NCBI GenBank assembly: GCA_019096065.1
Contig: JAGUCH010000008.1
Coordinates: 2,113,001 to 2,177,000, forward strand
DNA from: Paracyclopina nana
Lineage: Eukaryota; Arthropoda; Copepoda; Cyclopoida; Cyclopettidae
DNA length: 64,000 bases
Direction: 5' to 3'
Shown: positions 16,134 through 53,632 of the stretch, in pieces
Layout of the letters: every line of letters begins with the position of its first letter
Position numbering within the stretch: the first letter of the stretch is position 1
The notes under the pieces: generated by a model
What the model was told of the DNA's origin: nothing
What the model saw: only the letters and a program-made list of their open reading frames with translations
The model's database searches: none
Position numbers and translations under genes: made by a program

Positions 16134-17814
16134 ATGATCCAAGTTTGGCTGTTTTTCCTCCTAATAAAAGATGCCAAGTGCATCTTTGAAGGCTGTGATG
16201 GATTCTTGGGTGAGAGCAATACATACGTAGTTGATTTGACTCTTTTCATGCTTGCGAACTAGGCTCTCCTTGGGTTGTTTTCATATCGACCTGTGAAAGG
16301 GAATTTGCCTGGGGCGGCATGAGCAGTAATACAACTGCGAGAACCACAGCGCAGCGATCAACAACGAAAAGGACCACTAAACGTTTTCCAGTTGGAGCAG
16401 AATCTTCAGAAAGTGAGGACGATGGCAGTCCCAAGGGCTACTTTAAATTTTTCGGCATCAAGATGTGCCTGGAGAATTACTACGAGTATGAAGATGACTG
16501 CGAGTTAGCATGCAGCAGTCGAAAGCCACGCATGATCAACCGCGAAGGAGTCGCCGTAAGCTTTCTAAGACGCACTTTTTTAGCAATGGACTGAAGGGCG
16601 TTCTCATACTCGACTTTTGGCTACCGAAAAACCTGATGATTTGTTGCCGACTGTAGCTACCTAGCACCTGTTTTCGGTAACAAGTCGAAAATATGCGAAC
16701 GCCCTTATATGTGGTAAAAGTATAACGGACATGAAAGCCAAAAAGGAAGAAGCTGCTTCGCGCAAAGCTCAAACACTGAGGAAGAGCCGGGCCTCCGCGC
16801 CAGGAATGACTGTAAGGAAACGCGCACATAACCCGAAATGGCCTTTATTTCAACGTGTTCACATTTCAGGGCCAGCAAAGGTCAGGCCGGTTTGCACCGG
16901 CGTGCTCGTCTCCCTGAATGTTGTGCTCACCTCAGCGCATTGCATCTCCACAGCGATGGCCATTCCAGAGCTGTGCAATCTCGAGGTAAATCAAAAGGCA
17001 ATAATCTTATTCATTTTTATAGTAGCAGCACTGTTAAAGGTAGTGGCCGGAGCCACTTACACCCGAAAGGCTGGCAACCAGCTAAGGTCGGTGAAGAAGA
17101 TTTTCTCGATGGTGCCGCCTGGCCAGGCTCAGTCTTATCGTCGGAGCGTGGGCAGCGATTTGGCCCTCTTGGTCCTGGATACGCCTTTTAAAAAAGAGTG
17201 CGGGGTCGGAGTCATTCCACTCCCCACCTACAATGGATACAAGCCAAAAAGTAATACAGAAGCTCCCCCAAAAAATAGTCGAGCTGGCTGGATGCACCTT
17301 TTTTCAGGTGGGCTCAGGTGCAACGTGTACGGGTGGGGTCGGCCCAGCAAGATCAGTTTTGAACACACGCTCATGCAGAAGGAGGTGAAAATTCGCAACA
17401 ACAAACTTTGCAAATGGCTCTCTTGGGGCACCATCCACAAAGACAACAAGGAGAGAGCCATCTGCTTGTACCCAACTGAGCTCAAAATGTGCCCTGTAGG
17501 CTAGCTGAATTGTAATAGGAAAGCCATTGCATTATCTTTTGTTGTAGGGGGATAGCGGGGGGCCGTTGATTTGCAGTCAAGGCCCAAATATGAACGTGGT
17601 CGCTGGAATCGCCACTTATATGGGGAAAAGCAAATGTGCGCAGCATCGTCTCAACCCCACGGTCTTAACGAACGTTGGCTCCTTCAAAAACAAAATTGAG
17701 GCCATAATTCAAAGCTACGAGTCAGACATCAGGAGTGACGCCAGCGTACGTGACGCTAAATCATCTAGCAGACAGATATTAATAACCCTGCTCCACTTGC
17801 TTCTAATAAAATAA
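16134..17814 (+). CDS. S1-family serine protease, membrane-anchored, tandem copy 2
   Basis: Exons 16134-16209, 16263-16555, 16721-16811, 16870-16985, 17040-17250, 17308-17495, 17548-17814 (413 aa). Same plan as the upstream paralogue: signal peptide, CDGFLGSPWVVFIS, a Thr-rich then acidic insertion, LTSAHC (His), GSDLALL (Asp), CNVYGWG, GDSGGP (Ser), and a C-terminal DAKSSS followed by a hydrophobic stretch, a good GPI-signal shape. No IVGG-type activation cleavage is visible. The position equivalent to 189 at the bottom of the S1 pocket is Lys, not the Asp of trypsin. The intron after 16555 contains a foldback MITE (16596-16704). Poly(A) signal AATAAA overlaps the stop region. Confidence 0.87.
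16596..16704. mobile_element. Foldback MITE, GGGCGTTCTCATA family, inside a protease intron
   Basis: Arms GGGCGTTCTCATACTCGACT and the inverted AAGTCGAAAATATGCGAACGCCC, with CTACCGAAAA/TTTTCGGTA inside. Relatives with the same ends at 22176-22343 and 37860-38097. Confidence 0.75.
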
Positions 17815-27900: not shown

Positions 27901-29196
27901 CAACATCAAGGCCCGCCAGTTCATGGTGCCGGTCTTCGTCTACGGGCTGGTGTACAACGCGCCGCGGTTTTTCGAGTACCGCGTCGAGTACCAGGGCTGC
28001 CTGGATTTCGGCAACGGCTCCGTCTCCACCTTCGAGATGGACCAGCGCCTCAACGTCACGTGCGAAAATCCCTACAGCTTGGTCTACACTGAGATGAGGA
28101 AAACGCAGCTCTACATATCGGTACACACTATTCGATTTTGGCTTCGCATGAACCCTTTTTTGAGATGGCTTCTCGGTGGAAAAAACCCTGATTGCTTATT
28201 GATTCGCGAGACTGCTCAATTATAGAATACTGAGCTCATTTTGTGTGGCAAGCCAAGCGATCAACTCTTGTCATTGAAATATGAGACTGAGAGCCCCAAA
28301 CTGTCAAGAGAATGAGTTATGCTTTCCAACTGAGCCAATCTTCTCTTCGTTGCAGCTGTACGTGAACAGCATGACCCTGATTTTCAACACCATCCTCCCC
28401 CTGGTGACCATGGGCATCCTCAACTACCTCATTTACGAGGCCATGAAGAAAAGCCTCAAGTTGAGTCGAAACCAAATGAGTGAAACGCGCTCCACCTTGC
28501 TCCGGCCGCGTCAGTTCTCGGGTTTAACCGGTCTCAACGATCAGCAGCAGGCGGAAGGCTTGAGGAGCCACGGAGGCCAGAATGTGGTGAGGAAGCGGGA
28601 GGCCAGGATCACAAAGGCTTCCATTGGCATCACTCTCATGTTCGTCATCTGCCACACTCCCCGCGTGATACCGAATGTCTTCGAAGTCGTTGCTGACCCA
28701 AACACTTTTCCCAAGGTACGCTCGTTCCAAGCCAGCCTTGTTAGGAGAAACTTTTCTCCTTGCAACAAAGTGCAAGTGGCTGATTAGGGAAAATACTACT
28801 AAGCGTGCTGTAGGGGGCATTTTCAAAAATGGAAGAGGTTCCTTATAACTATCATTTTTCAGTGGCTACCCATTCTGGTGAGCTTCAATCACCTCCTGAT
28901 AACCATCAACTCCTCGTTCAATTTTCTGTTCTACCTGAGTTACTGCCGGGGTAATAAGTCCACCAGAGGTGAGCTAAGCTTTCCTGAAAATTAGTTAGCG
29001 AGCCAATTAACGCTTATTTTCAGGCCTAAGCAACTCGATGCAGGCCACGATGGTGACGGCAGCAGCAGCAGCTCAAATTATGCCCCGAAATGGCTCATCG
29101 GGTCAAACCGAGGGGGAAGCTGTGCAAATGCAGCACATTTTGGAAAGCCCGCCTCAAGTTGTCGTTCACGGATCATCGTCGTCCACTGTCGTTTGA
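21925..29196 (+). CDS. FMRFamide-receptor-like class A GPCR
   Basis: Seven-helix neuropeptide-type receptor (423 aa) for the plasma membrane. Exons 21925-22089, 27403-27561, 27812-28120, 28356-28715, 28863-28968, 29024-29196. The N-terminus has NNSTS glycosylation sites. TM1 is IGLVINIMALYIL; TM3 ends TVERFFAIR (ERF in place of DRY); TM4 leads into VYNAPRFFEYRVEY, very like the YNxPRFFE of FMRFamide receptors. TM7 is LLITINSSFNFLFYL, the group's LLITINSSxNFxxY. The 120-residue fourth exon adds a long third cytoplasmic loop. The tail ends in a Ser-rich VHGSSSSTVV, a possible PDZ ligand. Intron 1 is 5.3 kb and filled with repeats, while the others are 140-250 bp. The ligand is not deducible; an RFamide peptide is a reasonable guess. 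AATAAA follows the stop. Confidence 0.9.
22176..22343. mobile_element. Foldback MITE in GPCR intron 1
   Basis: Ends ACGTTCTCATATCGCC / GCGATATGAGAACGCCC; interior of repeated TTTGGTTTAACCAAAACTGA-like palindromes. Same end family as 16596-16704. Confidence 0.7.
22930..23560. repeat. Tandem satellite, 171-bp period, in GPCR intron 1
   Basis: CTTTTTCCCCACTAATTCCC recurs at 23101, 23272 and 23443, exactly 171 bp apart; a degraded unit precedes them. Each unit also has CCAATAGCAAATCTGTCCCC. It lies in a very AT-rich tract (about 22400-24620). Confidence 0.85.
25211..25618. mobile_element. Harbinger-like MITE, copy 2, in GPCR intron 1
   Basis: TGCCCCGTTCATGTA ... TACATGAACGGGACA flanked by TTA on both sides. 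Collinear with 5675-6073 over most of its length, with small indels. Confidence 0.8.
26957..27010 (+). repeat. Weak tRNA-like fragment
   Basis: GCTCGAC and GTCGAGC could pair as an acceptor stem around a box B (AGATTCGAATCC), but there is no D-arm. Probably a relic. Confidence 0.3.
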
Positions 29197-30362: not shown

Positions 30363-30399
30363 TATAAAGGATCTAGCTGACCTCCGTTTGGACTCAGTT
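30363..30399 (+). promoter_or_regulatory. TATA plus initiator core promoter of the Kunitz gene
   Basis: TATAAA at 30363-30368 and TCAGTT at 30394-30399, with the initiator A (30396) 33 bp from the TATA start. This is the standard arthropod TATA-Inr arrangement; the predicted transcript begins 24 nt before the ATG. Confidence 0.75.
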
Positions 30400-30419
30400 G
30401 TGATCATCATCTTGCTGCA

Positions 30420-33400
30420 ATGATGCTGCTGTTGACCTATTTGGCTTTTTTAGCATCCATTCTGTCTTGCCTCTCGACAACAGACGCCACCAGTGATTTT
30501 TGCCTACTGTCAAAGGACTCTGGGCCTTGCCGAGCTCAGCAGGTGAAGTTCAGCTTCAACAAAGAGTCGGGAAAGTGTGAAGCTTTCATTTTTGGGGGTT
30601 GCAAAGGCAACCTCAACAAATTTGACAGCCTCCAAGAGTGCCACAGTGCTTGTCTCAATCCATTGGAGGATGAAAGCATCCACATCAAAACTGCTCACTG
30701 TCAAGAGCCACCGCTGAAATCCGCAAGGCATGCCCAACACAATTTAGTCTACCATGCTTTTTAAAAAAAACCGGCCTCATTTCCAGGGCCTGCATGGGCT
30801 TCTTCCCCAGGTTCACATTCAACCCAAAAACCCTCAAGTGTGAAAAGTACATTTATGGTGGGTGCGGGGCCTCAGCCAACATGTTCCTCAGTGTGGAGGA
30901 GTGCATGACCACCTGTTACTTTGGCGACCCTCTAGGAGCCGCCAAGGTGAGGTCATCTCCGAGCGGGGCTCGAACCAGGGGTCGGAATGAGGCTGTCCTT
31001 CTTGGGCCCCTGCCGATAGGCACTGGTGAGGAGAATGAGGACATTTGCAGCCTCCCCCCAGTCACTCCACATCTTAGAGCTTGTTTGGCCTTCATGCCAA
31101 AATGGACTTACGACACGAGGTAATTAATACAGTAATGCTTCCTCAATTTCAATACGATGCTTAACTTTACTCGAAGGCAAGGAAAATGCATTCCATACAC
31201 ATATGGTGGCTGCTATGGCACCAAAAACGTGTTCAACTCCGAGGCTGAATGCTCGAGTGTTTGTCCTTCACTGAAGCCAGCGAAGATGTGGGTGCAGCCT
31301 CCACAGTGCAGTGAGCCTCCGGTCCAGGGACTGGTGCAATGCATGGGATTCAGCGCCAAATTCACCTTCGATGGCACCAAGTGCGTGCCCTACACGTACG
31401 GGGGCTGTGGGGCCACAGGAAATGTATTCGACACCATGGAGCAGTGCTTCCAGACCTGTGACAAAAACAGCGTTGAGGACTCGCCCAAGGTCGTGCAAGA
31501 CGTTTGTGGCCTTGAAATCGAGACTGGGCCATGCAGAGGTTACATGCCAATGTTTGCTTTCAACAAGGAGACCAAACGATGCGAAAAGTTTATTTACGGA
31601 GGTATGAAAACTTTTTTTCTTGCATGAAGCTCTTGATAAGCTTTGATCAATTGTCAGGCTGCAAGGGCAATCTTAACCGGTTTTCGCGGGTGGAAGACTG
31701 CGTCAACACCTGCGGCGGCCAGGAGCCCCAAGACGAAAGCAGCCTCTGCTCAGCAGTCGCTTGTGAAAATTTGGACTTTATGAAGGCCAAAGGCTGCATC
31801 CCTCAAATCAACCCGGGAGAATGCTGTCCCTCCTCTTGGGATTGTTCCACTTGGACGAACTCAAGGCTGCAGAGAAGAGATGAATGCTTCTGGTCCAATG
31901 ACCTTCACCCAAATGGAAAGTTTTATGCCATTGGCGAGGCTGTCCCCGAGGCCAACCAAGGCTGCCGAACCTCTTGTGCCTGTGTTGGCATGGGCACAGA
32001 GGCCAAAATAATTTGCGCCATTATGGACTGTGCTCACAACCCAATTTTGCCAGGTAATACTATTTTTTGCCAATCTCACGTGACGTTGAAGATTTCTCTT
32101 ATCAAAAAAGGAGAGAACTGCACCTACCTCTACGACTCTCCTGATGCCTGCTGTCCCAAAAAAGTGTGCAACCAAGAATTGGAGGCCGTTCCACAATGTC
32201 AAAACTCAGTGCTGTCAGGCCAGAAAATTTACGACCCCAGTCACCCTTGCAAAGAGTGTTTTTGCACTGCACCTGGCACCCTGGAGTGCAGATCCGCGGA
32301 CTGTGCTCTCAATATGGAGGACAGGCTCATCCAAGGCTGCCTTCCTGTCTACACTGAGGGCAGATGCTGCCCCTCAGACTGGATTTGCCCCTCTGAGGCC
32401 GAAGAAAGGCCTCAACCAAGGCTCAGTGTTCCGAGTCTGGGTATCTCTGTGGCATGCCCACCAGGTATCAAAATCCTCTCTTGCTTCATCACCTTCATAC
32501 TCTACCTTTTTTCTTTTTTTTGGAAAAGGCATAAATGCAAGAAGGGATTATGTGGATTACCTCACCGTTCCTCCTTTGGAGGAAGCGCTCGACCAAATTG
32601 CAATTTTAACCAATTGGCCTTCGTCTACAAAAGAGCAAGCCTCTCTTAATAAGGAAGAGACCTCCAATTCAGGCCTGGATCCTTGCTTGGCTTCTCGACC
32701 TCCAGAAGGCCCTTGTGAGCCTTACATCGACAGGTGGACGTTTGATTTGTCTGCCAAAATGTGCAAGTAAGGGAAGCAAGAAGCAGTTGAATATTGAGAA
32801 TTATGTTGCAATTGCTAGGCCCTACAAAACTTCCTTCACCAAATCCACTGCCTTTGAGGTAGTCAACAGTTTTGACTCCCAGGAGACTTGTGAAAAAGCT
32901 TGTAAGGCTCATATTCCCTTGGAGAGAGACTGCAGGGCTAAAGCACACTTGAATCTAGGTACTATCTACTATGTGATGTAACTGTCGTATAATTGAAAAT
33001 TCTCCTTGTTTTTCTCATCGCTCCCAAATTAAAAAAAAGGTGGAACAAGGGGTGACAGATGTCTGCCTGAAAACAAGTACAGATTCAATGAGGAGACAGG
33101 GGAATGCCAGGATTACTCCAGCTTGGGATGTGCCCTTAATAAGGATAGCTACCACAGCCTCGAGGAATGCGAGGCTCACTGCAAGAAGCCAGCAGAAGAT
33201 TCTACATCTTCAGACGCGGCAGTCAAATTTCCGGGGAAAAGCTCGCACTGCAATTTACCCACTGAGGCAAGATTTATGAAAAATATCTATATAGTGCGTA
33301 TACGAAGACTGCAACTTGCTTGCATGCTCCGCATAATTATTTAGTAAATGCCCGTTCGTCAAGGATTTTTTTACAGTTTGGTTGCTTCACCCGTGAAATC

Positions 33401-35194
33401 TAAAGAGAGAAAGAAGGCCTTTGATTTGTAGGAATTTTCCTCCTTAATGAAAAATGCCAGTCAAGCACCAAGACTCCTATATTCATTACATTTTTGCTTT
33501 CAGATGGGCAATTGCAAAAGCATTCTCTTGAGGTTCTTCTACGATGCAGAGTCTGGCATTTGTCGTCCTTTCACCTACTCTGGCTGCCAGGGCAACCTCA
33601 ACAACTTTGTGAGTGAAAACTCCTGCATCCAAACGTGCGTGCCCCAGCTTGCAGACAACCAGAAGCCTGCAGCTGCCGAACTAGTCTATTTGGGGGATCC
33701 ATGCCAAATGGAAAAAGACCAGGGAAAATGCAGAGGGAAGCAGCCCATGTTCTTCTACGATTCTCACCTCAAAGTGTGCAAACTTTTCTACTTCGGAGGC
33801 TGTGGAGGAAATGCCAACAAGTAGGGAACCTTTTTCTATCAAACTTTCAACAGGCCTAGCCAATTTTTTGAAAGCAGGCTACTTTACTCAGATAATTGCA
33901 GAAACTTTTGCTCTACCTTAAATAGCTTATTTTTTATTCTTGCACAGATTTGCCACCGTGGAAGAGTGCCAGCAAACTTGCCCCACAGTGGACTCCCAGT
34001 CTCAGGCTTTGCTTGATTCTGGCTCAGTGTGCGACCAAAGTCTTGCTTGGTTCAAATGCCCTCGACTACGAACGAGCAATTCTGCCATTGCCAACAGCCA
34101 TGAAGTGTGGGCTTACGACCAGGCCTCTGGCCAGTGCCAAAACTTTGGCTTCTTGTGCGAAAATCGAGCCACATCTGGAAATGTCAACCGATTCGAGAGC
34201 AGAGACGTGTGCAATGCCTACTGCGTCACGAAGTCTGCTACAGTTGCTGTACGAGCATTGCCTCAGGTAAAACGAGCCTCAATTTTGAAACCGTGAAATA
34301 AGCTGTCATTTTTCTATAGGGAGATGCTGAAGAATCCTCAGTGGAAGATCCCTGCTTATCAAGCGTGGAAATTGGAAGATGTCGAGCCGCCATTCGAAGA
34401 TATTATTTTGACCTCACCAGCGGAGTCTGCAAAGGCTTCTTTTACGGAGGTACGAAGTCAATTGGCAATAATTTATCCTGGTGCTACATTTGAAATACCA
34501 TACAGGCTGCGGGGGCAACTTGAACAACTTTGCATCCAAGTCCACGTGTCAAGCCAGATGCCGCAGGCATTTGAAGAACCAGCAGCAGACTCAACAGCCA
34601 GAGACAAGTGTCATAACCAGCGTTGAAGAGCCGATCGACATTTGCCAACTGGCTGTGGAGACTGGGCCCTGCAAGGCCTCCAAGCCACGCTTCTTTTTCA
34701 ATTCCCATACGAGAAAGTGCGAGAGGTTCATCTATGGCGGCTGCAGAGGAAATGCCAACAACTTTGAGAGGTTTGAGGAATGCGTGAAAAAGTGCAGTAA
34801 TGGACAGCAGCAAGGGGCACGTGCAGATCTTGAACGAAAAGGCATCAGGCCAGCCCAGTGTGCTTTCCAAAATCAAATCTTCAACCTTGGCGACTATCTG
34901 AGGCTTGCCAATGACTCCTGCACCAGTTGCACCTGTTCAAGCCCTCCCAGCCTCACCTGCGTGAGGGAAAAGTGTGCAGAGGTGAAGATATTTGGCACCA
35001 CTGAGGGTTGCTCAGTTCTGAGTCCGCCAGGGTCTTGTTGCCAGAGGTCCATCATTTGCAGGCAGCCAGTGGACTCTTGCACAACCACCACATGTCCTCC
35101 GAGGCCAGAGGCTCAAAATATCAAAGGCTTTGATTGCCAACCTTTCCATGACTCATGTGGATGCCACAGGGGATTCTTTTGCATTGGAAAGTAA
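30420..35194 (+). CDS. Secreted multi-Kunitz protease inhibitor with VWC-like modules
   Basis: Twelve exons: 30420-30727, 30787-31119, 31177-31601, 31658-32053, 32111-32464, 32529-32766, 32819-32958, 33040-33266, 33504-33820, 33948-34266, 34320-34449, 34506-35194; 1291 aa with all phases consistent. Signal peptide, then five Kunitz/BPTI domains, a cysteine-rich block of VWC-like modules (CACVGMG, CFCTAPGT, GRCCPSDWIC), seven more Kunitz domains and a C-terminal VWC-like block. The predicted P1 residues in order are R, M, L, M, R, E, L, K, R, P, R, K, so both trypsin-type and elastase/chymotrypsin-type targets are possible. Domain 6 lacks the normal GGC core and domain 10 has a long insertion, so these may not inhibit. 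The introns after 30727 and 33266 start with GC. Resembles papilin-type multi-Kunitz proteins, but no thrombospondin repeats are visible. Extracellular. Confidence 0.87.
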
Positions 35195-42116: not shown

Positions 42117-45100
42117 ATGAGAAGTAAGATGAGGCTGTGGATTTTGATTCTGGCCTCCTTTGAGGCCATCAAAGGCTCAGAGGTTTCAGTTTTACTGGAT
42201 CTGTCTCGGGAATCTGAATGCAATCATGCAGAAAGCCATTTAGACAGTGAAGGTGCCAGACAAAAGGCTGAGGCTGTTCAATGGGCTTTGTCAAGGCTGC
42301 AGCAAAACGAGGTCACCGTCCTAGGTAAGACGCATTCAAAACCATCTAAACTTTTAATATGCATCAACTACAATGTCTCGATCCTTAGCAGATTTTCTAA
42401 TCATTACCAGGTGACGGGTATTTAAGAACCTTTTTACTACATAAGGAATTCAAAAATACCCGTCACCTGATAATGATGAGAAAATCTGCTGAGGATCGGG
42501 CCTTTATCTTGATTTGAGAAGAGTTTCAATTTATTCGCATTTTAAAAAACGAGAATCAAGTAAAGAAATCACAAGTGTCTATCCAATAAAGCAAGGGAAG
42601 CAAAATGATGTGCATGTGTGTATACGCGTATGCATGTACACAAGATCATAAGTTCTGCTAACAAGAAAACTTAAGTCGCACGCTCACAAAAATACACTGC
42701 ACTGTGGATACAATAGGATAAAATGTGGAAGCTTTTTCTCCTCGCTCTTACCAAGCATAAAAGGTACTCCATATTCCTGGAAAAACCTTTTCCAAATTAG
42801 GAGCTGTGATAGTTGCGACAGTGGATCGATGCATCCTTTGTTAACGTAGGAGCTCTTCTCCGAAAATGTAATTGGGAAAAGTCTGTGCCATTTATATAAA
42901 CGTAAATATAGCGAGAAGCAGAACTTAAACTACCTCTCCCAAGAAACGAGAGCTTTCTCTTCGTACGTAACTGGAAATAGATGAGGCTGTGGATCAGGAT
43001 ATCTTGATGAAAAACGATCATATTGCAGAGTCCAAGATTGAAGACACCTGTGGCAATGCCAGCCTAGCCACATCAAAGGTCTTGTCCTTGGCATCAGGCT
43101 ACAACCACCTGATCTCCAATGCAGGCTGCACCCATGGTTACATACTGGTATCCTCCAACTTGCAGATTTTAAAGCCTCTCGCTCAAGTAGTGAGACTCGA
43201 GTGGTTATTCAAGCCACAAAAGGAGGAACTTTTGGAGGAAAAGGCTGCAGCATTGGCCATGGCCAGGAGGCTGAAATGGAGCCACGTGGCCTTGCTTTCT
43301 AATGATTTTGAGCTAATGAAAGCCTTTGGGAAGTCCGCAGAGAGGGGAGAGATTTGTGTGGCTGCCGCCATCTCAATCAATACCGATAGGTACATGCACT
43401 CCCTAATTACACGTATCTAGCTCATTATACTGCGCACCTCTTCAATGGAGGTCCTACTATAACACGGCATGATTTTCCAATTGTAGGCAAAATGATGTGA
43501 GCAATTCTAGTTCTCTACCAAAAATTGCCGAGCAACTGTTGGCTTCTGGCTCCAAAAATGTGATTGCTTTTGTCGAGTCTTACTCCATAGCGGACTTGAT
43601 CAATGCGCCAGCGTTGAGTGGATTCACGTGGATCTTGTCAGTGCCACACTCCACAAATACTCAAATTGACATAGTCACCTCAGGTAACAAAAAAAGCCCC
43701 TTTGCATTTAGACTCTCACCTTCGGCTATCAAAAGTTAGAGTTGTATTTAACGAATAAACGATTTTATTTTAGGCACGACTTCAGTGGTGTACTCAATGG
43801 AAAACAATTTCAAAAGGGCGCCAGAATTCACTGACTTTTACCGAAACTTGTCTTCACACTCGAGCAAAAGTTACGAGGATCCTGCCCTGTTCCAACTTAT
43901 GAGATCGCTCACCGGCCTCCACAAACTGGCAGCCTCAAAAAATGGAGGTTGCCTTTTTTCTTTACCTTCAGAGAGTGAGGCTAGAGAAATGCTCAAACTG
44001 ACCTACGAGGAGCGAAAAATCAGCCCATTTTTAATGACAGCGGAAAGTCAGCATCTGCTTATTGGGGAATTCGAGGCCAACCTCGGCCTCGTCCTCAACA
44101 CTGAATTTGGTGCCAGTTACATTTTACCTGGTCAATCTGACTCGAATTGTCACAAATGCAAGTGTCTCAATTTGGAGGTTGTAAAAGCGGACCAAGGCAT
44201 CAAGTGGAAGTATGATCATTGGGTCACCATTGTGGCCACTGTGTCCAGCCTCGGCCTCATGGCCTCGGCCTCCTTTTTATTCTACATAATGGGCAAATCC
44301 TGCTCTGAGCTTTTGGAGGGCTCGCAATACACCAGCTTGGTGTTACTCTTGGCCATTATGCTGAGCTACATCAGTATTATACCCTTTGGTTTTGAGCCCA
44401 CTGACCTCATTTGTCCTCTGAGGTCGCAAGCCACGCGGCTGGCATTTGTGCTTTTATTTTCTGTCATTCTGTCAAGGTCGTTGATGCTGGCAACGTCTGA
44501 CGTTGATGGCTTACCCGGCCATCTTAGTGGCGCAATCCAGTTTTCATTGCTGGTATTTATGGCTGGAATTCAGGTATAAAGCACATTTTTTTCTTGTATA
44601 AAACGATGCAATAGACGAACTTGTCTGATATTTCGACATGAATCGATTAATTAAAGCTCGTTGAGTAAATCCTAGCTGCAACAAAAGTTATGAAATCGTC
44701 ACACGCAACTAATTATGAAATTAATTATCTCAGGTTGCCTTGGTGCTTCAAGAATGGTTTACGCCACTAAAGTCTTCACATGTCACGCTCCTCAATGGGT
44801 ACCAAGAGCGATTGGAATGCACAAACTTGTCAAATCCTGGATTTCTGCGAGAAAACTCATATGCCATGCTCCTTTTGGGCCTGCAAATCATGGTGTCACC
44901 CTTCATCATCAGTTCCAAAAGGAATTACAAGGAAGGCTTGCTATTTTGCTGTGGTTCCTTTGCCAGCCTCTTCATTTGGATTGGCTGGTCAACTGCATTT
45001 GCTTTAGTTGATGATGACAACAGGGACATCACGGTGTGCTGTGCTTTGGTAGCTTTGCCCACTGCACTCATTCTCATCATTTACATTCCGAAAGTAAGCT

Positions 45101-46193
45101 TTAAAAACATATTTTCCGGCACCGGCCTACTAAATGAAAGCAAGCAATCCTAACCCCTAGAACATGCCGGATAACTCTACTAGCTAGATTACCGGGCTAA
45201 AAAGTTACTTTCGCTGATGGCGAAAATACTTTCATACTTACATAACTGAGAGTACTCTATCATTCGAGCCTCTCTACAATACTATAAAAGAGGACTGTTT
45301 AGCAAAAACTTTTTTTCTACAATGAAAAGGAAAAGGTTTCCGGCACCGGGAATCGAACCCGGGCCTGCTGGGTGAGAGCCAGCTATCCTAACCCCTAGAC
45401 CATGCCGGATGACGCTGTCATAGTTATTAACACACTTTGTGTTGCATTGTAAAAAAGTAATCCTCTGACGAGGGAACTGTGAAAGCTTCCAAGCGGGATT
45501 TGAAGGCTCAAACAAAAAGTTTTTCCATGTCCACTAACGCACAAAAAAGCTGCAGTGGATGAAAAAATCTTGAAAACATTTGCTTGTTTTCTAGTGCTAC
45601 CTCATCTCCAGCTCAGGGTCCTTGTACTATAAAGGTCAAGCCAGCGAGCTGAACCTGCAAGGCTTCATGGGGCCTCTGCACACCAGTCAAGACACTAGCG
45701 CATCAACATCCTCCAGAATCGGCTATAATGATGTTAGCAGTCATGCTCTCAATACTGTGACATCCTCCTTGGCCTCCCATGAAAGGCACAACAGCCTCGC
45801 TGCCATAGGATCCATTAGGCAGATCCACCAACCATCTGACTTGTATGACACCTTGATTGGTAACTATGTTCAGCTCATCTAGAAAAGTACATTGACTCGT
45901 TCATTCAATATATTGCAGCCAAATCTCAAAATGGCAGTAATTTCCATCCTGGTGGAAGGACTGAGGCCAATCCTCTAAGGTCACATAACTTTGGCGGAGG
46001 ACATTCATTTTTGGCCTCTAGCCTCCCATGTGACAGCCCAGAGAGGAGAGCAGCCTCAGAGTATCCAACCTTCAAATTGGACCAAAATACTGAGGTTGAC
46101 ACCTCGATCAGCTGGGAGAGATACCCATCATATGGTTTGTCCAAAAATACAAGTACCAAGCACGGTGCCAAGAAAATGCAACAACTTGTGTGA
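42117..46193 (+). CDS. Class C GPCR, bride-of-sevenless-like
   Basis: Exons 42117-42324, 42981-43389, 43487-43683, 43774-44573, 44734-45093, 45595-45859, 45919-46193 (837 aa). Signal peptide (LWILILASFEAIKG), then an extracellular region of about 390 residues with the loose pattern of class C ligand-binding domains (SEGARQKAEAVQWALSRL; KRLKWSHVALL-like strands) and a short CHKCKC element before TM1. Seven helices follow from HWVTIVATVSSLGLM to ALPTALILIIYIP. TM3-TM4 reads LMLATSDVDGLPGHLSG, which I associate with bride-of-sevenless receptors. The cytosolic tail of about 180 residues is Ser-rich. If orthologous, it would act at the cell surface as a Sevenless ligand or nutrient sensor. The class C call is firm; the subfamily less so. 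The intron after 45093 carries a tRNA-Glu and a tRNA relic on the opposite strand. Confidence 0.82.
42379..42498. repeat. 45-bp-arm hairpin in intron 1 of the class C GPCR
   Basis: CGATCCTTAGCAGATTTTCT.. (42379-42423) is the inverted copy of 42454-42498 with about four mismatches, around a 30-nt loop. It looks like a short foldback transposon. Confidence 0.75.
45114..45171 (-). pseudogene. Decayed tRNA-Glu copy, T-arm deleted
   Basis: Minus strand: TCCGGCATGTTCTAGGGGTT matches the intact tRNA-Glu at 45338-45409 in the acceptor and D-arm, and CCGGTGCCGGA matches its 3' acceptor side. The T-arm is missing, and the anticodon region reads CTTTCAT (TTC by alignment). It lies 20 bp after a splice donor of the host gene. 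Confidence 0.75.
45338..45409 (-). tRNA. tRNA-Glu (CTC)
   Basis: 72 nt, minus strand. A 7-bp acceptor (TCCGGCA/TGCCGGA), D-arm GGTCTAGGGGTTAGGATA, a 5-bp anticodon stem GCTGG/CCAGC with loop CTCTCAC (anticodon CTC), and T-arm CCGGG-TTCGATT-CCCGG. No intron. All invariant bases are in place, so it should be functional. Sits inside an intron of the class C GPCR on the opposite strand. Confidence 0.95.
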
Positions 46194-46804: not shown

Positions 46805-48883
46805 CTAAATGAGAGGATTGTTGTTGTAAACCGAGTTGGCATCAGCAGCCGAGTTGGGAGCTGGTGGAGGAGGACCACCGCACTTGCTCTTGTTGTCCTC
46901 CCAAGTCTTCAAGGCAGTTTTGTACTTTTGGAACTCCTGGCACCACTCCGAGTAGACCTTTTGGTAGTCTGCAGTTTTGTTGGGCGCTGCGCACCGCTGC
47001 ATGTCTACCGTAACGTGGTAGCTTGACACGGTCTCCCTCCCCAGTCGACACTCATATTGACCAGCATCGCTCTCCTGCATGCCAATGATGACCAAGCCAT
47101 TGTTTTGCGTGAAGACATGCTTGCCAGTGGCCGGCCTACCCAGCAAATGCCTCTTCTCCTTCATGTCATAGAAGACCCAGGAGATGGGCTGATCCACATG
47201 CTGGACAGCACAGGACAAGTGGACCGAGCTGCCAAAGTTGGCTGGCACCTTTTTTCGTGGGAGTGAGGCTTCGCAAATGCCCTCTGCCACACCTTGGGGA
47301 TCTTGCAGCATGTACGGGCCAGAGGGTTGGCACTCTCCGGTTTCACGGTTCCAACCGCAGTAGGGATCATGCGCACATTGGACACAGTTCTTGTACTGCT
47401 GGTTGCAGTTTCGGTCGGTGGAGACCTGCTTCACGCCATAGTCGGAGGTGACGATGAGGCTTCTGGATTTGCGAGACAAGACCATGGCCCGGACGGGCTC
47501 AGGGTTGGTCACATCCATGATGTCCAAGAGACGAGAGGCAAACTTGCCATCAGAAGTCGGCCATCGTGCAATCTTGAACACTCTTCCGTCATCAGTGCCG
47601 GCATAGTAGATCTTGAACTTTTGCCCGATGGCACCATAGGAAGTTTGCTTGACCACTTCATCAACCACCACCTTGACAAAGGTCACGTCTCTCTGGTAGA
47701 AGACAGGCCCATCGGCATCATGCGGCACATCAGAGTCCATCAGAGGGTGAGATCGAATAAAGTTTAAGACATTGTCTGGCACCTCTCGTGTGTCTTGAAC
47801 ACAAGAGCCTGGCCTTGGTTCCGGCACTTCATTGGAAGGCACTGGCAGCCACATGGAAGTACTTGTCGCTTGCTCCTTGAACTTGCCATCATCAAAGACG
47901 GCATTAATATCCTTGAGGTTGAAAGAGCAGACGGCTGATCCTCTCAGTCCATTCTGGTTGGTCGTGAAGACAGCATGGAAAGATAGGTCATCATTGGAAG
48001 CCTTGAACACATCTTGAATCTCATCGAAGAAGAACGGAAACTCTCCTGGAATTGAGCAGTTGAGCCTGGCTTTGAGATAGGTGACCCAGTTCTGGTGCAG
48101 AATGTTTTTGCCACCAGTGTCCTTTTTGCACACCCGAGCAATCCTGGAGTAGACAGTCTTGCCACAGTTCATGTACTCGACAGCAGTTTCTCGAAAGAAA
48201 AAGTAGACGTAATCTCCAACTTCATAGCTGCCAACAAAGTCTGGTTTGTCGAGCATGTGCGAGTCATACTTGATGGTTCTCTTAAAAGTGTATTCTCTCC
48301 TTCCAGTGCTTTCATCAAAGATGTCGCCCCGAAAGATGACAGCATCTGCCTTCGTGAATTCAGCATTGGTGCCAGAGTAGATGGCAGGGTGACCACCAGG
48401 ATTGCCAGCTTCCACCCACACTGCTGTGGAGTTGTCTTCGGGGTCAAATGGACACTTGGCAATGCCATCTCCGATTCCAGGATAGAACTCGTGCCTTGCC
48501 AAGTGAGTCAGGTTGGCATAGATGACCTCATCTTTGGGGCTGTGAGCATTGGTGCCACAAATATACATCCTTGATCCATCACCGATTGGCTGAATCACCC
48601 TAATGTGATTCCTGCAGTCATAATCAGAGGATTTACCCCTGGATACACAATTAGCAATGCTGGTGGCCTTCAAGACCAATGAGTCTTTCGTGCAGTCTGC
48701 TTCAGAGATATCTTGGAGATTCTTGATCTTGAACAGTCTATCCATAGCTCCAACATAGAGTTCATCATTGGCCTCATCAAGGTAAAGAGTTCTGTAGTAA
48801 AGATGACCACAGGTAAATTCTTTGAGGGGCTCTGGGGCCACCAAGGCCCCCCAAAAGGCCAAGAAAGGGACAATTCTCAGCAT
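46805..48883 (-). CDS. Sema2a: Secreted semaphorin, Sema2a type, intronless
   Basis: One uninterrupted frame of 692 codons. Extracellular axon-guidance ligand that in arthropods signals through plexin B. Order: short N-terminal hydrophobic leader (MLRIVPFLAFWGAL), sema domain (about 20-500) with LYVGAMDRLFK, SRGKSSDYDCRNHIRV, CGTNAHSPKDEVIYANLTHL, GNPGGHPAIYSGTNAEFTKA; PSI domain (CVQCAHDPYCGWN); Ig domain (HLSCAVQH ... SDAGQYECRLG); and the short Sema2-type C-terminal region (KVYSEWCQEFQKYKTALKTW). No TM segment. Length fits class 2. The complete absence of introns contrasts with almost every other gene here and suggests origin by retroposition. No disabling mutation is seen. Confidence 0.95.
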   Translation of the reverse strand: MLRIVPFLAFWGALVAPEPLKEFTCGHLYYRTLYLDEANDELYVGAMDRLFKIKNLQDISEADCTKDSLVLKATSIANCVSRGKSSDYDCRNHIRVIQPIGDGSRMYICGTNAHSPKDEVIYANLTHLARHEFYPGIGDGIAKCPFDPEDNSTAVWVEAGNPGGHPAIYSGTNAEFTKADAVIFRGDIFDESTGRREYTFKRTIKYDSHMLDKPDFVGSYEVGDYVYFFFRETAVEYMNCGKTVYSRIARVCKKDTGGKNILHQNWVTYLKARLNCSIPGEFPFFFDEIQDVFKASNDDLSFHAVFTTNQNGLRGSAVCSFNLKDINAVFDDGKFKEQATSTSMWLPVPSNEVPEPRPGSCVQDTREVPDNVLNFIRSHPLMDSDVPHDADGPVFYQRDVTFVKVVVDEVVKQTSYGAIGQKFKIYYAGTDDGRVFKIARWPTSDGKFASRLLDIMDVTNPEPVRAMVLSRKSRSLIVTSDYGVKQVSTDRNCNQQYKNCVQCAHDPYCGWNRETGECQPSGPYMLQDPQGVAEGICEASLPRKKVPANFGSSVHLSCAVQHVDQPISWVFYDMKEKRHLLGRPATGKHVFTQNNGLVIIGMQESDAGQYECRLGRETVSSYHVTVDMQRCAAPNKTADYQKVYSEWCQEFQKYKTALKTWEDNKSKCGGPPPPAPNSAADANSVYNNNPLI

Positions 48884-49218
48884 TATTATTGACTGCTACC
48901 CATTTAAGATGGCGTCACTTAGAGCTTTCTACTCAAGCGCTACCAGACTTCCACTTGCATAAACAGACAAAAGTTTTTGGAAAAAGCCTAATTAACAACT
49001 TTTATTTCATCTTTTTTCAATATCAAATAAAGCATTCAAAAGGACATTTATGTAAAAAGATTTTCGATAAGTCAATGATCTCGAATTAAGAATGGAAAAA
49101 GCCAAACTGGCAGCTCTGTCTTGCAGATGCCACCACCTGGCCCACTCACATCGTAAATCTGCCATTTACTGAGGGGTAATGATAGCTTTACATTTTTTGG
49201 GGCAGAGGGTCGAATATT
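48884..49218. other. Upstream region of Sema2a and 3' flank of the lipocalin gene
   Basis: 335 bp between Sema2a and the last lipocalin exon; both genes are on the minus strand. No clear TATA. Confidence 0.4.
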
Positions 49219-51018: not shown

Positions 51019-51822
51019 TCATTGGGAATGTCTCGCTTGTGCGGCTTGCTGTGCTTGCACGAATTCCGGATAGTCAATGTAGCCATCCTGGTTTTTGTCA
51101 TCTGTGGCCAAGATCGGATCAATCATGTTCACCAGTTCGTCATCCTTGAAGATCTTCTCCTCGGGCAAGGGCTGGCCACTGTTTTGATCATGATTCGAGT
51201 GGTCTGCAAAAATATGCTTTTGGCATTGACAAAGAGAGTATTTTAGCGTTTACCATGCCAATGAATGAGAGACTTGACAAGTTCACAGCCATCAAGTTTG
51301 TTGTTGCCATCAGCGTCGTGCATCTTAAAGTAGTGGAATTGCAACTCTTGCTCAGACATGTTGGAAGTATCAATGGGCACATCCATATGTTCCTTCATGT
51401 GGCTGCGCAAAAAAGTTCAGAATCATCTCCCTGTGGACACCAAAAAGTGGCGCGTCTACTTACTCCCTTTCAGCATTCAGACTTTTGGAGTCTTGATGCA
51501 GAACCTTCTTTTGCTGATGTCCTCCATGCTGCTGCTGAAATTGCTGCTGTTGTTGTTGAGGAGGAGGCTGTTGCTGCTGAAACTGTTGTTGTTGAGGTGG
51601 CTGCTGAAATTGTTGTTGCTGCTGCTGCTGAGGCGGCTGCTGAAACTGCTGCTGCTGTTGAAACTGTTGTTGCTGCTGAAACTGCTGCTGTTGCTGGAAC
51701 TGCTGCTGTTGTGGTGGTGGAGGTTGGTGTTGATACTGACTCGGGTTGACGCCAGGAGGCGCTTTGTGCTGCCCTCTTGCGGCCGCTACGACCAAGGCCA
51801 AAAGGAAAACCGGCCTTAGCAT
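51019..51822 (-). CDS. MCFD2: MCFD2-like EF-hand ER cargo adaptor with Gln-rich insert
   Basis: Exons 51464-51822, 51254-51402, 51019-51203 (230 aa). In other animals MCFD2 binds the lectin LMAN1/ERGIC-53 and helps export glycoproteins from the ER in a calcium-dependent way. Signal peptide ([16 protein letters not shown]), then a Gln/Pro-rich stretch of about 70 residues (roughly 30-100). The conserved part follows: [27 protein letters not shown] (EF-hand 1, [10 protein letters not shown]) and EF-hand 2 ([14 protein letters not shown]). Both loops keep their calcium ligands. Vertebrate MCFD2 lacks the Gln tract. The start of the neighbouring dehydrogenase-RING gene lies 625 bp away in the divergent direction, so a shared promoter region is possible. 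Confidence 0.92.
51530..51725. repeat. CAG/CAA trinucleotide-rich tract in MCFD2 exon 1
   Basis: Mixed TTG/CTG triplets on the plus strand, i.e. CAA/CAG on the coding strand, in imperfect 15-18-bp units encoding QQFQQ. The long plus-strand ORFs here are artefacts of the triplet bias. Confidence 0.85.
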
Positions 51823-52447
51823 GACTAAAAATAACGCAATTTGTTTACTTTTTCTCGAAATCGTTTAAACCATGCCATGGAGTGACGTGGAATATAAAAA
51901 CGTGTCCAGACGCGTCGGACGCCTGACAGGCACGCGTGCCATCAAATACGAGTGGACAGACCGTATTTCTTCTACCTGTTCAGCTTACTGCGACAGGTTG
52001 ACGGATTCGCTTTTGGAGCGGCCTAAGAAAAGATGGCGAAGGGACAAATCTGCCGGTTTTACCTTGGCTTTGACGATGATGAACGGGAAGAAGCGATGAA
52101 TTCGGCCAATTCCACATCAGCAGCCGGAAAGATTCTTCTCTCAGTCTCTCACTTGACGAGAGAGCGCTTGTTATGGTGGAGGCGCGCGCGCGCGCAGCCC
52201 TCCACGCATGCGCCGTGCAATCCATGCGGGAAATGCATGGTGTACGCTGTATTTTAAATCTGTTCATTATCCTGATCGTAGCATTTCAACCTAAAATCGG
52301 GGTGACCCTTGAATTATAAATGCACGCATATGATTTCAAAAAGAGAAAGCTCTCCAGGCCACAGGTATGATGGCCGCTGCTTTCTCCGACAAATCAAGTT
52401 GACTTTTCCTAATAAGGTTCCTCCTTTTGAATTTTGGCAAGCAAGAA
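51823..52447. promoter_or_regulatory. Divergent intergenic region, possible shared promoter
   Basis: 625 bp between the start of MCFD2 (minus) and the dehydrogenase-RING gene (plus). GC-richer than average, with alternating GCGCGCGCGC near 52185-52196. No TATA in a convincing position. Confidence 0.35.
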
Positions 52448-53632
52448 ATGGTTGTTGTGACAGTTCTGGGCATCGGTAGGCTCGGTGGCAACATAGCCGG
52501 CGATTTAGCCTTCAATGGGCACTCGGTGAGGGTGTGGGATGCGGACAAGGCCACATTGGACAAATTGAACGAAAGGCTCAACTATGAAAAGAAGCGACTG
52601 AGGGATGACAAAGTTCTGGCCTATCCCGACTTTCTGGTATGCGTCAAAATGAACTCGCTCCGCAAACTCTGACCATTCCGCGTTTTCCCCAGGGAAACGT
52701 GTATTGCTTCGAAAAGCTGGAAGAGGCCTTGAGCGAAAGCAGGCTCGTCATTGAGGCCATCCATGAGGACGCCGAGGATAAAAAGTTGCTCTTTGAAAGT
52801 ACGACTCCGATTGCACTTTGAATTTTAATCAAGCCAAGTTCCTTTCATTCAGAGATTTCGCAGTTGTGCAAAGCCTCGGTGATTTTAGCCTCCAGCTCAA
52901 TGCGAATCCCATTGGAGGACATTTTTCAGGCTTCCACCTTCAAAGAGGTGAGCAAAAGCGCTTTCGCATGCGATGAAACTTTTTATGCATCACGTTCTTA
53001 GAGGTGCATCGGAATGAGGTTTTTGTTCCCCGTCTACTGCATACCCGAGGTGGAGTTAACCAAATCGCCGGACACCAGCATTCATACCGTGGACAAATGT
53101 AGTTCATTTACTCAGCTCGCGCGTTTTGCTTTATCCCTAAAATTGTGCTCTTTTTGGAGGCATCGCGTTTTTGGAGAAGTGCGGGAAAACGGCGTTTTTT
53201 CGGTCGGGTCCCGAGCCTTTGATCCTCACCGAGGAGCAGAGAGCGGAGCGCCGCAAATATCGCGCCGAGCAGTTCCGGCACAACAAAATGCTGAGCGGAC
53301 GCGGCCATTTTCTCGTGCCAAACTTGGCGCACAGCGGCAACTTCGCGCCCAGCCAGGATGACATGTCCGGTAAGTCAAAGCAGCTGGCTCGAACGCCGGC
53401 CCGAAACGTGTCCGCGCATCAGCTGACTCCCGCTTTGTTTGCAGCGCGAAAGAGCTCAGCTTTGGACGCTGAGTGCGTGATTTGCATGGACCGGCAAAGA
53501 AGCTGCATCTTGTCACCGTGCCACCATCTGTGCACCTGCGGAACGTGCGGGGACCTTTTGCTGAGGCGGAAAGATGCCTGTCCAATTTGCCGACGAGGCA
53601 TTGTCCAAATCATCCCTTATTACATTTCGTAA
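52448..53632 (+). CDS. 3-hydroxyacyl-CoA dehydrogenase NAD-domain fused to a C3HC4 RING finger
   Basis: Exons 52448-52636, 52693-52798, 52853-52947, 53002-53098, 53160-53369, 53445-53632 (294 aa). Residues 1-176 are a 3HCDH N-terminal Rossmann domain: VLGIGRLGGNIA (GxGxxG, 8-13), RVWDAD, RLVIEAIHED, ASSSMRIPLEDI, GMRFLFPVYCIPEVELTKSP and AFLEKCGKTAF. In active enzymes the GMRF block is GxHF; here the catalytic His is Arg136, and the following Asn is Phe139, while Glu148 of the His-Glu pair is kept. The family's C-terminal catalytic/dimer domain is absent. Instead a basic linker (about 177-232) leads to a RING finger with C243, C246, C258, H260, C264, C267, C278, C281. Exon 5 encodes both the dehydrogenase tail and the linker, so the fusion is not a gene-model accident. 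Inference: an NAD(H)- or acyl-CoA-binding E3 ubiquitin ligase, not an active dehydrogenase. Cytosolic (no signal peptide). Confidence 0.88.

Follow-up and report, generated by a model that had tools for sequence, protein, structure and literature searches.

The window analysed here is a stretch of 64,000 nucleotides from the cyclopoid copepod Paracyclopina nana (contig JAGUCH010000008.1, positions 2,113,001 to 2,177,000 of the forward strand), and the subject of this report is a forward-strand gene (52448-53632) in which a Rossmann domain of the 3-hydroxyacyl-coenzyme A (CoA) dehydrogenase type is fused to a RING finger. The gene consists of six exons, all with GT-AG borders, which join in frame into a protein of 294 residues followed by a stop codon, as the initial annotation of the window had proposed (Table 1). 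Two acceptor sites, those of exons 3 and 4, are ambiguous, and the alternatives were rejected because either shift destroys the frame. The start Met is found at the same place in 31 of 40 aligned sequences, namely the window protein and 39 of the 63 matches of a single-sequence search that have both domains and are near full length; the other 9 are shorter there.

Both domains named by the initial annotation were recovered when the 294-residue protein was searched against Pfam, with 3HCDH_N (112.2 bits, residues 4-174) and zf-C3HC4_3 (50.2 bits, residues 241-287) each well above the cut-off, and the GxGxxG loop is intact as described there. The complete C3HC4 RING lies where the C-terminal catalytic domain would be expected, and Pfam gives 16 matches for the protein at E up to 1, none of them to this domain (PF00725). 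The predicted two-domain proteins of relatives are encoded on short contigs (P0001, 1,340 bases; P0002, 2,373 bases), presumably in uninterrupted frames, which provides indirect support for a joint transcript. Candidate paralogues in the P. nana genome (92 Mb, 10 contigs) were rejected: the 28 matches comprise the six exons of the gene itself and otherwise canonical dehydrogenase or RING-only sequences. A scan of genome contigs with the canonical enzyme as the query gave only two loci.

Table 1. Features of the dehydrogenase-RING gene of P. nana, in window coordinates
Feature	Position	Strand	Basis
Exon 1, residues 1-63; the 3HCDH_N Rossmann domain begins here, without a preceding extension	52448..52636	+	splice sites, frame
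GxGxxG dinucleotide-binding loop (G8-I-G-R-L-G13)	52469..52486	+	
Exon 2, remaining Rossmann core with Glu84, Glu88 and Lys93	52693..52798	+	
Exon 3	52853..52947	+	
Met115, replacing the catalytic Ser (Ser137 in human HAD)	52900..52902	+	
Exon 4, RFLFPVYCIPEVE block	53002..53098	+	
Arg136, replacing the catalytic His (His158 in human HAD)	53017..53019	+	144/144 covering sequences
Phe139, mostly Asn in canonical enzymes	53026..53028	+	
Glu148 (Glu170 in human HAD), kept although its partner His is lost	53053..53055	+	
Exon 5, final Rossmann strand, invariant R177, PLxL hinge, helix and disordered linker	53160..53369	+	
Exon 6, RING finger, tail and stop codon	53445..53632	+	
C3HC4 zinc ligands C243, C246, C258, H260, C264, C267, C278, C281	53474..53590	+	
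Linchpin Arg282 and fixed-length C-terminal tail, aromatic at -3 (Tyr292)	53591..53629	+	

Loss of the dehydrogenase active site

Residues were counted in 146 family sequences, that is, the window protein and 145 matches, after setting aside fragments joined to unrelated sequence (P0048-P0052) and canonical dehydrogenases (P0053-P0063). The 22 canonical controls were drawn from a set of 16 matches (the 9 sequences scoring above 150 bits), from four matches in the P. nana genome (2 sequences, leaving aside two pieces of a CRYL1-like gene) and from the single-sequence search (11 sequences).

In human 3-hydroxyacyl-CoA dehydrogenase (HAD; PMC10988713), His158, held in place by Glu170, accepts the proton, and a residue of the dimerisation domain, Asn208, packs over nicotinamide and substrate. 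The catalytic His and Ser are both replaced in the family. Position 136 is Arg in 144 of the 146 sequences and a gap in two, and His in all 22 canonical sequences; the position of the catalytic Ser (115) is occupied by Leu (103 sequences), Met (34) or Ile (7), with two gaps, and by Ser in all 22 controls. The partner of the lost His, Glu148, is present in all 145 covering family sequences (one gap) and in 22/22 canonical ones. Arg136 is also found in each of the 133 sequences that cover residues 93 and 136 and show the last RING motif, and after removal of near-copies (90 sequences) Arg136, Glu148, Arg177 and Lys93 are each present in 90/90. A local mutation or a sequencing error as the source of Arg136 was rejected, given its presence in every covering sequence.

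The initial annotation had read Arg136, Phe139 and Glu148 correctly, and the conserved His at residue 136 that it named as the result speaking against the loss was sought, with only Arg being found. Its substitution of Phe139 for Asn likewise stands; position 139, which we take to correspond to Asn161 of human HAD, is Phe in 76, Tyr in 57 and His in 11 of the family sequences (two gaps). Asn is nonetheless the weakest of the markers proposed, because only 16 of the 22 canonical sequences have it, the rest having Ser, Gln or Ala. Of the interpretation given there, the dead dehydrogenase site is supported, and it extends to the Ser, which is lost as well; sensing of NAD(H) or acyl-CoA and control of ubiquitination by such a ligand are possible functions. 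The replacement of Ser and His in every covering sequence, together with the C-terminal catalytic domain not being found, supports the view that the dehydrogenase site is dead. Such a replacement is invariant, which is more than relaxed decay would give, and the pocket therefore appears to be kept for something else.

RING finger and C-terminal tail

The RING carries the residues of an active E3 ubiquitin ligase, which bears out the complete RING of the initial annotation. All eight zinc ligands are present in 40/40 of the aligned two-domain sequences, and in the larger set each is lost in only one to three covering sequences. Ile/Val245 (138 of 141 covering sequences) and Pro279 (138 of 138) presumably are the E2-contact positions, and the residue directly after the last Cys, which we take to be the linchpin position, is Arg282 in 136 of 138. 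A cationic linchpin positions the donor ubiquitin (PMC12326332). With zinc ligands, E2-contact residues and linchpin kept, the RING looks active.

The tail that follows the last Cys was examined in the 136 of 146 sequences that contain CP[VI]C followed by R, K, M or Q (the 10 others, without this motif, are mostly truncated or odd gene predictions); it has one length in 134/136 and Tyr or Phe at -3 in 132/136. A short tail of fixed length with an aromatic residue at -3 is, as we take it, characteristic of the MUL1/MDM2/IAP class of dimeric RINGs, and the RING tails of MUL1 and MDM2 work like those of RNF4 and BIRC7. In the latter two dimeric RINGs, the tail of one subunit contacts ubiquitin jointly with the other subunit (PMC8586995). 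The tail thus suggests that the RING of the present family is of the dimer type.

The best match of the RING in the PDB is that of MUL1 (mitochondrial ubiquitin ligase activator of NFKB 1; 43 bits), and the alignment spans the whole RING including the C-terminal tail with Tyr at -3. MDM2, MGRN1, cIAP and XIAP follow; the matches to MDM2, cIAP and XIAP score about 26-34 bits, and the MDM2 chain also has an aromatic residue at -3. MUL1 differs in its N-terminal half and is a membrane protein, and the N-terminal domains of MDM2, cIAP and XIAP are unrelated to the dehydrogenase-like half described here.

Predicted structure

An AlphaFold2 model was built for the orthologue P0001 from 58 sequences (mean predicted local distance difference test score (pLDDT) 87, predicted template modelling score (pTM) 0.68). 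In the numbering of this protein, Rossmann strands and helices extend to residue 176 and are followed by a helix (187-210), a segment with pLDDT below 50 (208-240) and the RING. The first half of the model matches the 3HCDH-type fold in structure comparison, and the matches of the structure search include solved Ser137 mutants of HAD. Two rigid modules on a flexible tether, as modelled, suit the recruitment of a partner by one of them and the transfer of ubiquitin by the other.

Phyletic distribution and descent

The single-sequence search gave 63 matches, the best of which is 65% identical to the window protein (100% query cover), followed by one at 64% (98%) and by Nymphon at 51%. The architecture is not a matter of chance, because the closest relatives (65% and 64% identical) carry both domains. 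Profile searches, of which 120 of 299 and 120 of 146 matches were listed, extend the distribution much further. The same pair, which the initial annotation had suggested looking for in other proteomes, is found in arthropods and beyond, in at least 11 animal phyla among the matches listed (phyla being assigned from the species names). These include Mollusca, Annelida, Brachiopoda (Lingula), Nemertea (Lineus, Tubulanus), Platyhelminthes (Macrostomum) and Rotifera (Brachionus); among ecdysozoans, Priapulida and Arthropoda, namely spiders, mites, ticks, a millipede, a centipede and Nymphon; and further Hemichordata, Echinodermata and Cnidaria (Nematostella, Oculina, Desmophyllum). The matches listed name no vertebrate, insect or nematode, which is no proof of absence given the word-limited selection of candidates. 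A lineage-specific fusion was rejected because the same domain pair occurs across phyla. On this distribution, the gene represents a family conserved across Eumetazoa rather than an oddity of a single species.

In a quick tree of 56 sequences, chelicerates (plus sequences without a species name) group with support of 99 and ambulacrarians with support of 100, as for an inherited gene. The deep order of this tree is unsettled, because 21 of its 53 inner branches are open and the ambulacrarians are placed, with weak support, among sequences of lophotrochozoans. A tree of the dehydrogenase part alone, with 17 of the 22 canonical controls and a bootstrap that is not fully settled, places 19 family sequences, cnidarians included, on one side and the 17 canonical sequences on the other at 100/100; in this comparison the domain of the family forms one clade apart from the canonical enzymes.

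The millipede protein P0014 (Chamberlinius hualienensis) has an N-terminal PX domain (60 bits) ahead of the dehydrogenase-RING pair, which is either a real three-domain form or the product of two merged gene models.

Nucleotide-binding site and conservation across the domain

The glycines of the GxGxxG loop are retained in nearly all covering family sequences (G8 in 110/112, G10 in 111/111, G13 in 116/117), and Lys93 is present in all 144. Along with Asp31 and Glu/Asp88, these features are kept from anthozoans to arthropods, and because they are kept, binding of nicotinamide adenine dinucleotide (NAD(H)) by the pseudo-dehydrogenase domain is plausible. For acyl-CoA, binding is less likely, since the C-terminal domain needed to close the cleft of the active site is missing.

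Conservation was compared across the domain in 90 of 131 full-length sequences with mutual identity below 80%, the NAD positions being chosen partly from what is known of such sites in general. Several of the most conserved positions lie around the old active site and the hinge (Y142, P140, F175, P182, R177 and R136), the hinge positions having been picked after the conservation was seen and hence given no p value. The GxGxxG glycines score as high as these positions. In the hinge region, R177 and L185 are each found in 146/146 family sequences.

Proposed mechanism and alternatives

The sequence itself shows the fused architecture, the invariant loss of the catalytic residues, the intact RING and the single clade of the domain; E3 activity, dimerisation, retention of NAD(H) and recruitment of a substrate by the pseudo-dehydrogenase are inferred from it. 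We consider it rather probable that the gene belongs to a family of dimeric RING E3 ligases, ancient within Eumetazoa, in which a dehydrogenase-dead, probably NAD(H)-binding domain serves as a substrate-recruiting or ligand-responsive module. The N-terminal half would be an NAD-binding domain of the 3-hydroxyacyl-CoA dehydrogenase type that has lost its dehydrogenase chemistry, and a disordered linker of about 33 residues would tether it to a MUL1/MDM2-like RING, which, with its dimerising C-terminal tail, would recruit E2~ubiquitin. NAD(H) is most likely still bound by the pseudo-dehydrogenase half, which would recruit the substrate, and the occupancy or redox state of the nucleotide might tune this recruitment or the geometry of the dimer. 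The invariant Arg136-Glu148 pair probably stands in for the His-Glu pair as a salt bridge, a guess based on the invariance of both residues. Regulation by a nucleotide or acyl ligand is the speculative and least certain part of the scheme. Its strongest form, a direct metabolite-to-ubiquitin switch within one polypeptide, kept since the cnidarian-bilaterian ancestor, in which NAD(H) or another ligand toggles the RING ligase or changes its substrate, is advanced only tentatively.

Several observations weigh against this interpretation. Considered together, 14 positions of the NAD site do not clearly exceed the remainder of the domain in conservation (random-draw p 0.07), and Asp31 is replaced by Ser in 8 of 137 covering sequences. 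The family matches were collected by queries that themselves have Arg136, with a possible bias towards like sequences. Eleven sequences (P0080, P0085, P0087, P0099, P0107, P0111-P0115 and P0118; RFLHPVY) have a His at position 139, three residues after the lost one; these are the hemichordate and echinoderm sequences, P0115 being without a species name. As to structure, the P0001 model contains neither ligand nor contacts that would bear on the Arg136-Glu148 pairing, the VIA-align rows cover model residues 1-186, that is, the first half only, with no RING among the structure-comparison rows shown, and a single-sequence model of the window RING alone (pLDDT 43) is too poor to use.

One alternative is a RING E3 in which the dehydrogenase-like half acts purely as a fold for substrate recognition, with NAD structural or absent and no metabolic control. 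The NAD-site set does not stand significantly above the domain average, and the six highly conserved positions listed above would suit a protein-binding surface or a rigid core; on the other hand, the GxGxxG glycines score as high as these positions, and the retention of the loop, Asp31, Glu/Asp88 and Lys93 from anthozoans to arthropods would be needless for a mere scaffold, so that we regard this alternative as somewhat unlikely. That the first half is an enzyme of changed chemistry, acting through Arg136 (with His139 in ambulacrarians) on a different substrate, would fit the invariance of Arg136 and Glu148 where covered and the His139 of 11/144 covering sequences. This appears improbable in view of the aliphatic residue at the catalytic Ser position in 144/144 sequences and of the dimerisation domain not being found, which in human HAD supplies Asn208 and closes the cleft (PMC10988713); where it would lie, the P0001 model shows a helix, then a disordered linker, then the RING.

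Two further possibilities concern the second half and the join. Not every RING is active, and the protein could be a dimerising adaptor with a pseudo-RING scaffold devoid of E3 activity; the retention of the zinc ligands, Ile/Val245, Pro279, Arg282 and the tail aromatic in nearly all covering sequences makes this very unlikely. A neighbouring dehydrogenase fragment and a RING gene wrongly joined in the gene model is less probable still, to the point of being hardly credible, as the same pair occurs on the short contigs of relatives and in the annotated genomes of many phyla, and conservation extends to the hinge and helix that link the halves.

Relation to known proteins and significance

The family shares 3HCDH_N with the 3-hydroxyacyl-CoA dehydrogenases (HADH, CRYL1/L-gulonate dehydrogenase, MFE1 and bacterial 3-hydroxybutyryl-CoA dehydrogenases) and differs from them in the replaced Ser and His, in PF00725 not being found, in the added RING and in its separate clade. 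The use of a dehydrogenase-derived nucleotide-binding domain in regulation has a parallel in CtBP and other NAD(H)-binding dehydrogenase-like regulators; these belong to another dehydrogenase family and are not known to carry a ubiquitin-ligase module. No published account of a dehydrogenase-RING fusion was found among titles and the opening parts of abstracts, a scope outside which most subscription journals lie. The words 'dehydrogenase' and 'Rossmann' occur 0 times in the main text of a human E3 compendium (PMC13061254) and likewise of a Drosophila RING survey (PMC3166285). RING ligases and pseudoenzymes are known kinds of proteins; within the literature searched, their pairing as a conserved family was found nowhere in print.

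Public databases call many proteins of the family metabolic dehydrogenases although Ser and His are absent, the source names including '3-hydroxybutyryl-CoA dehydrogenase-like', 'lambda-crystallin homolog', 'L-carnitine dehydrogenase' and 'peroxisomal bifunctional enzyme-like'. Within the same literature, an old and conserved family under the names of beta-oxidation enzymes seems to have been overlooked as a ubiquitin ligase and pseudoenzyme, and such names may insert a wrong enzyme into metabolic models of invertebrates. If nucleotide binding tunes the ligase, a single protein would link cellular redox or lipid metabolism to protein turnover. The case for study is strong because orthologues of the two-domain protein are present in tractable laboratory animals, namely Nematostella, Strongylocentrotus, Capitella and the spider Parasteatoda.

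Other genes in the window

About 600 bases upstream of the gene lies a divergently oriented neighbour (51019-51864, minus strand) with a secreted-looking start, a long poly-Gln/Pro stretch and frames that by eye resemble EF-hands. A 696-residue open frame at 46805-48895 (minus strand) is semaphorin-like: it matches Sema at 150 bits, while its PSI and Ig matches fall just below their cut-offs. Frames with repeated Kunitz-like cysteine patterns, recognised by eye, occupy 30381-35194 (plus strand); the frame at 31516-32649 within this run has no Pfam match, and Kunitz_BPTI matches are found at 34472-35194 (plus strand). Pieces of G protein-coupled receptors of class C (7tm_3; 43752-44579, plus strand) and of the rhodopsin family (7tm_1; 28278-28787, plus strand) are also present, as are a piece of a trypsin-type serine protease (16665-17504, plus strand; 49 bits) and a tRNA-Glu (CTC) gene (45338-45409, minus strand).
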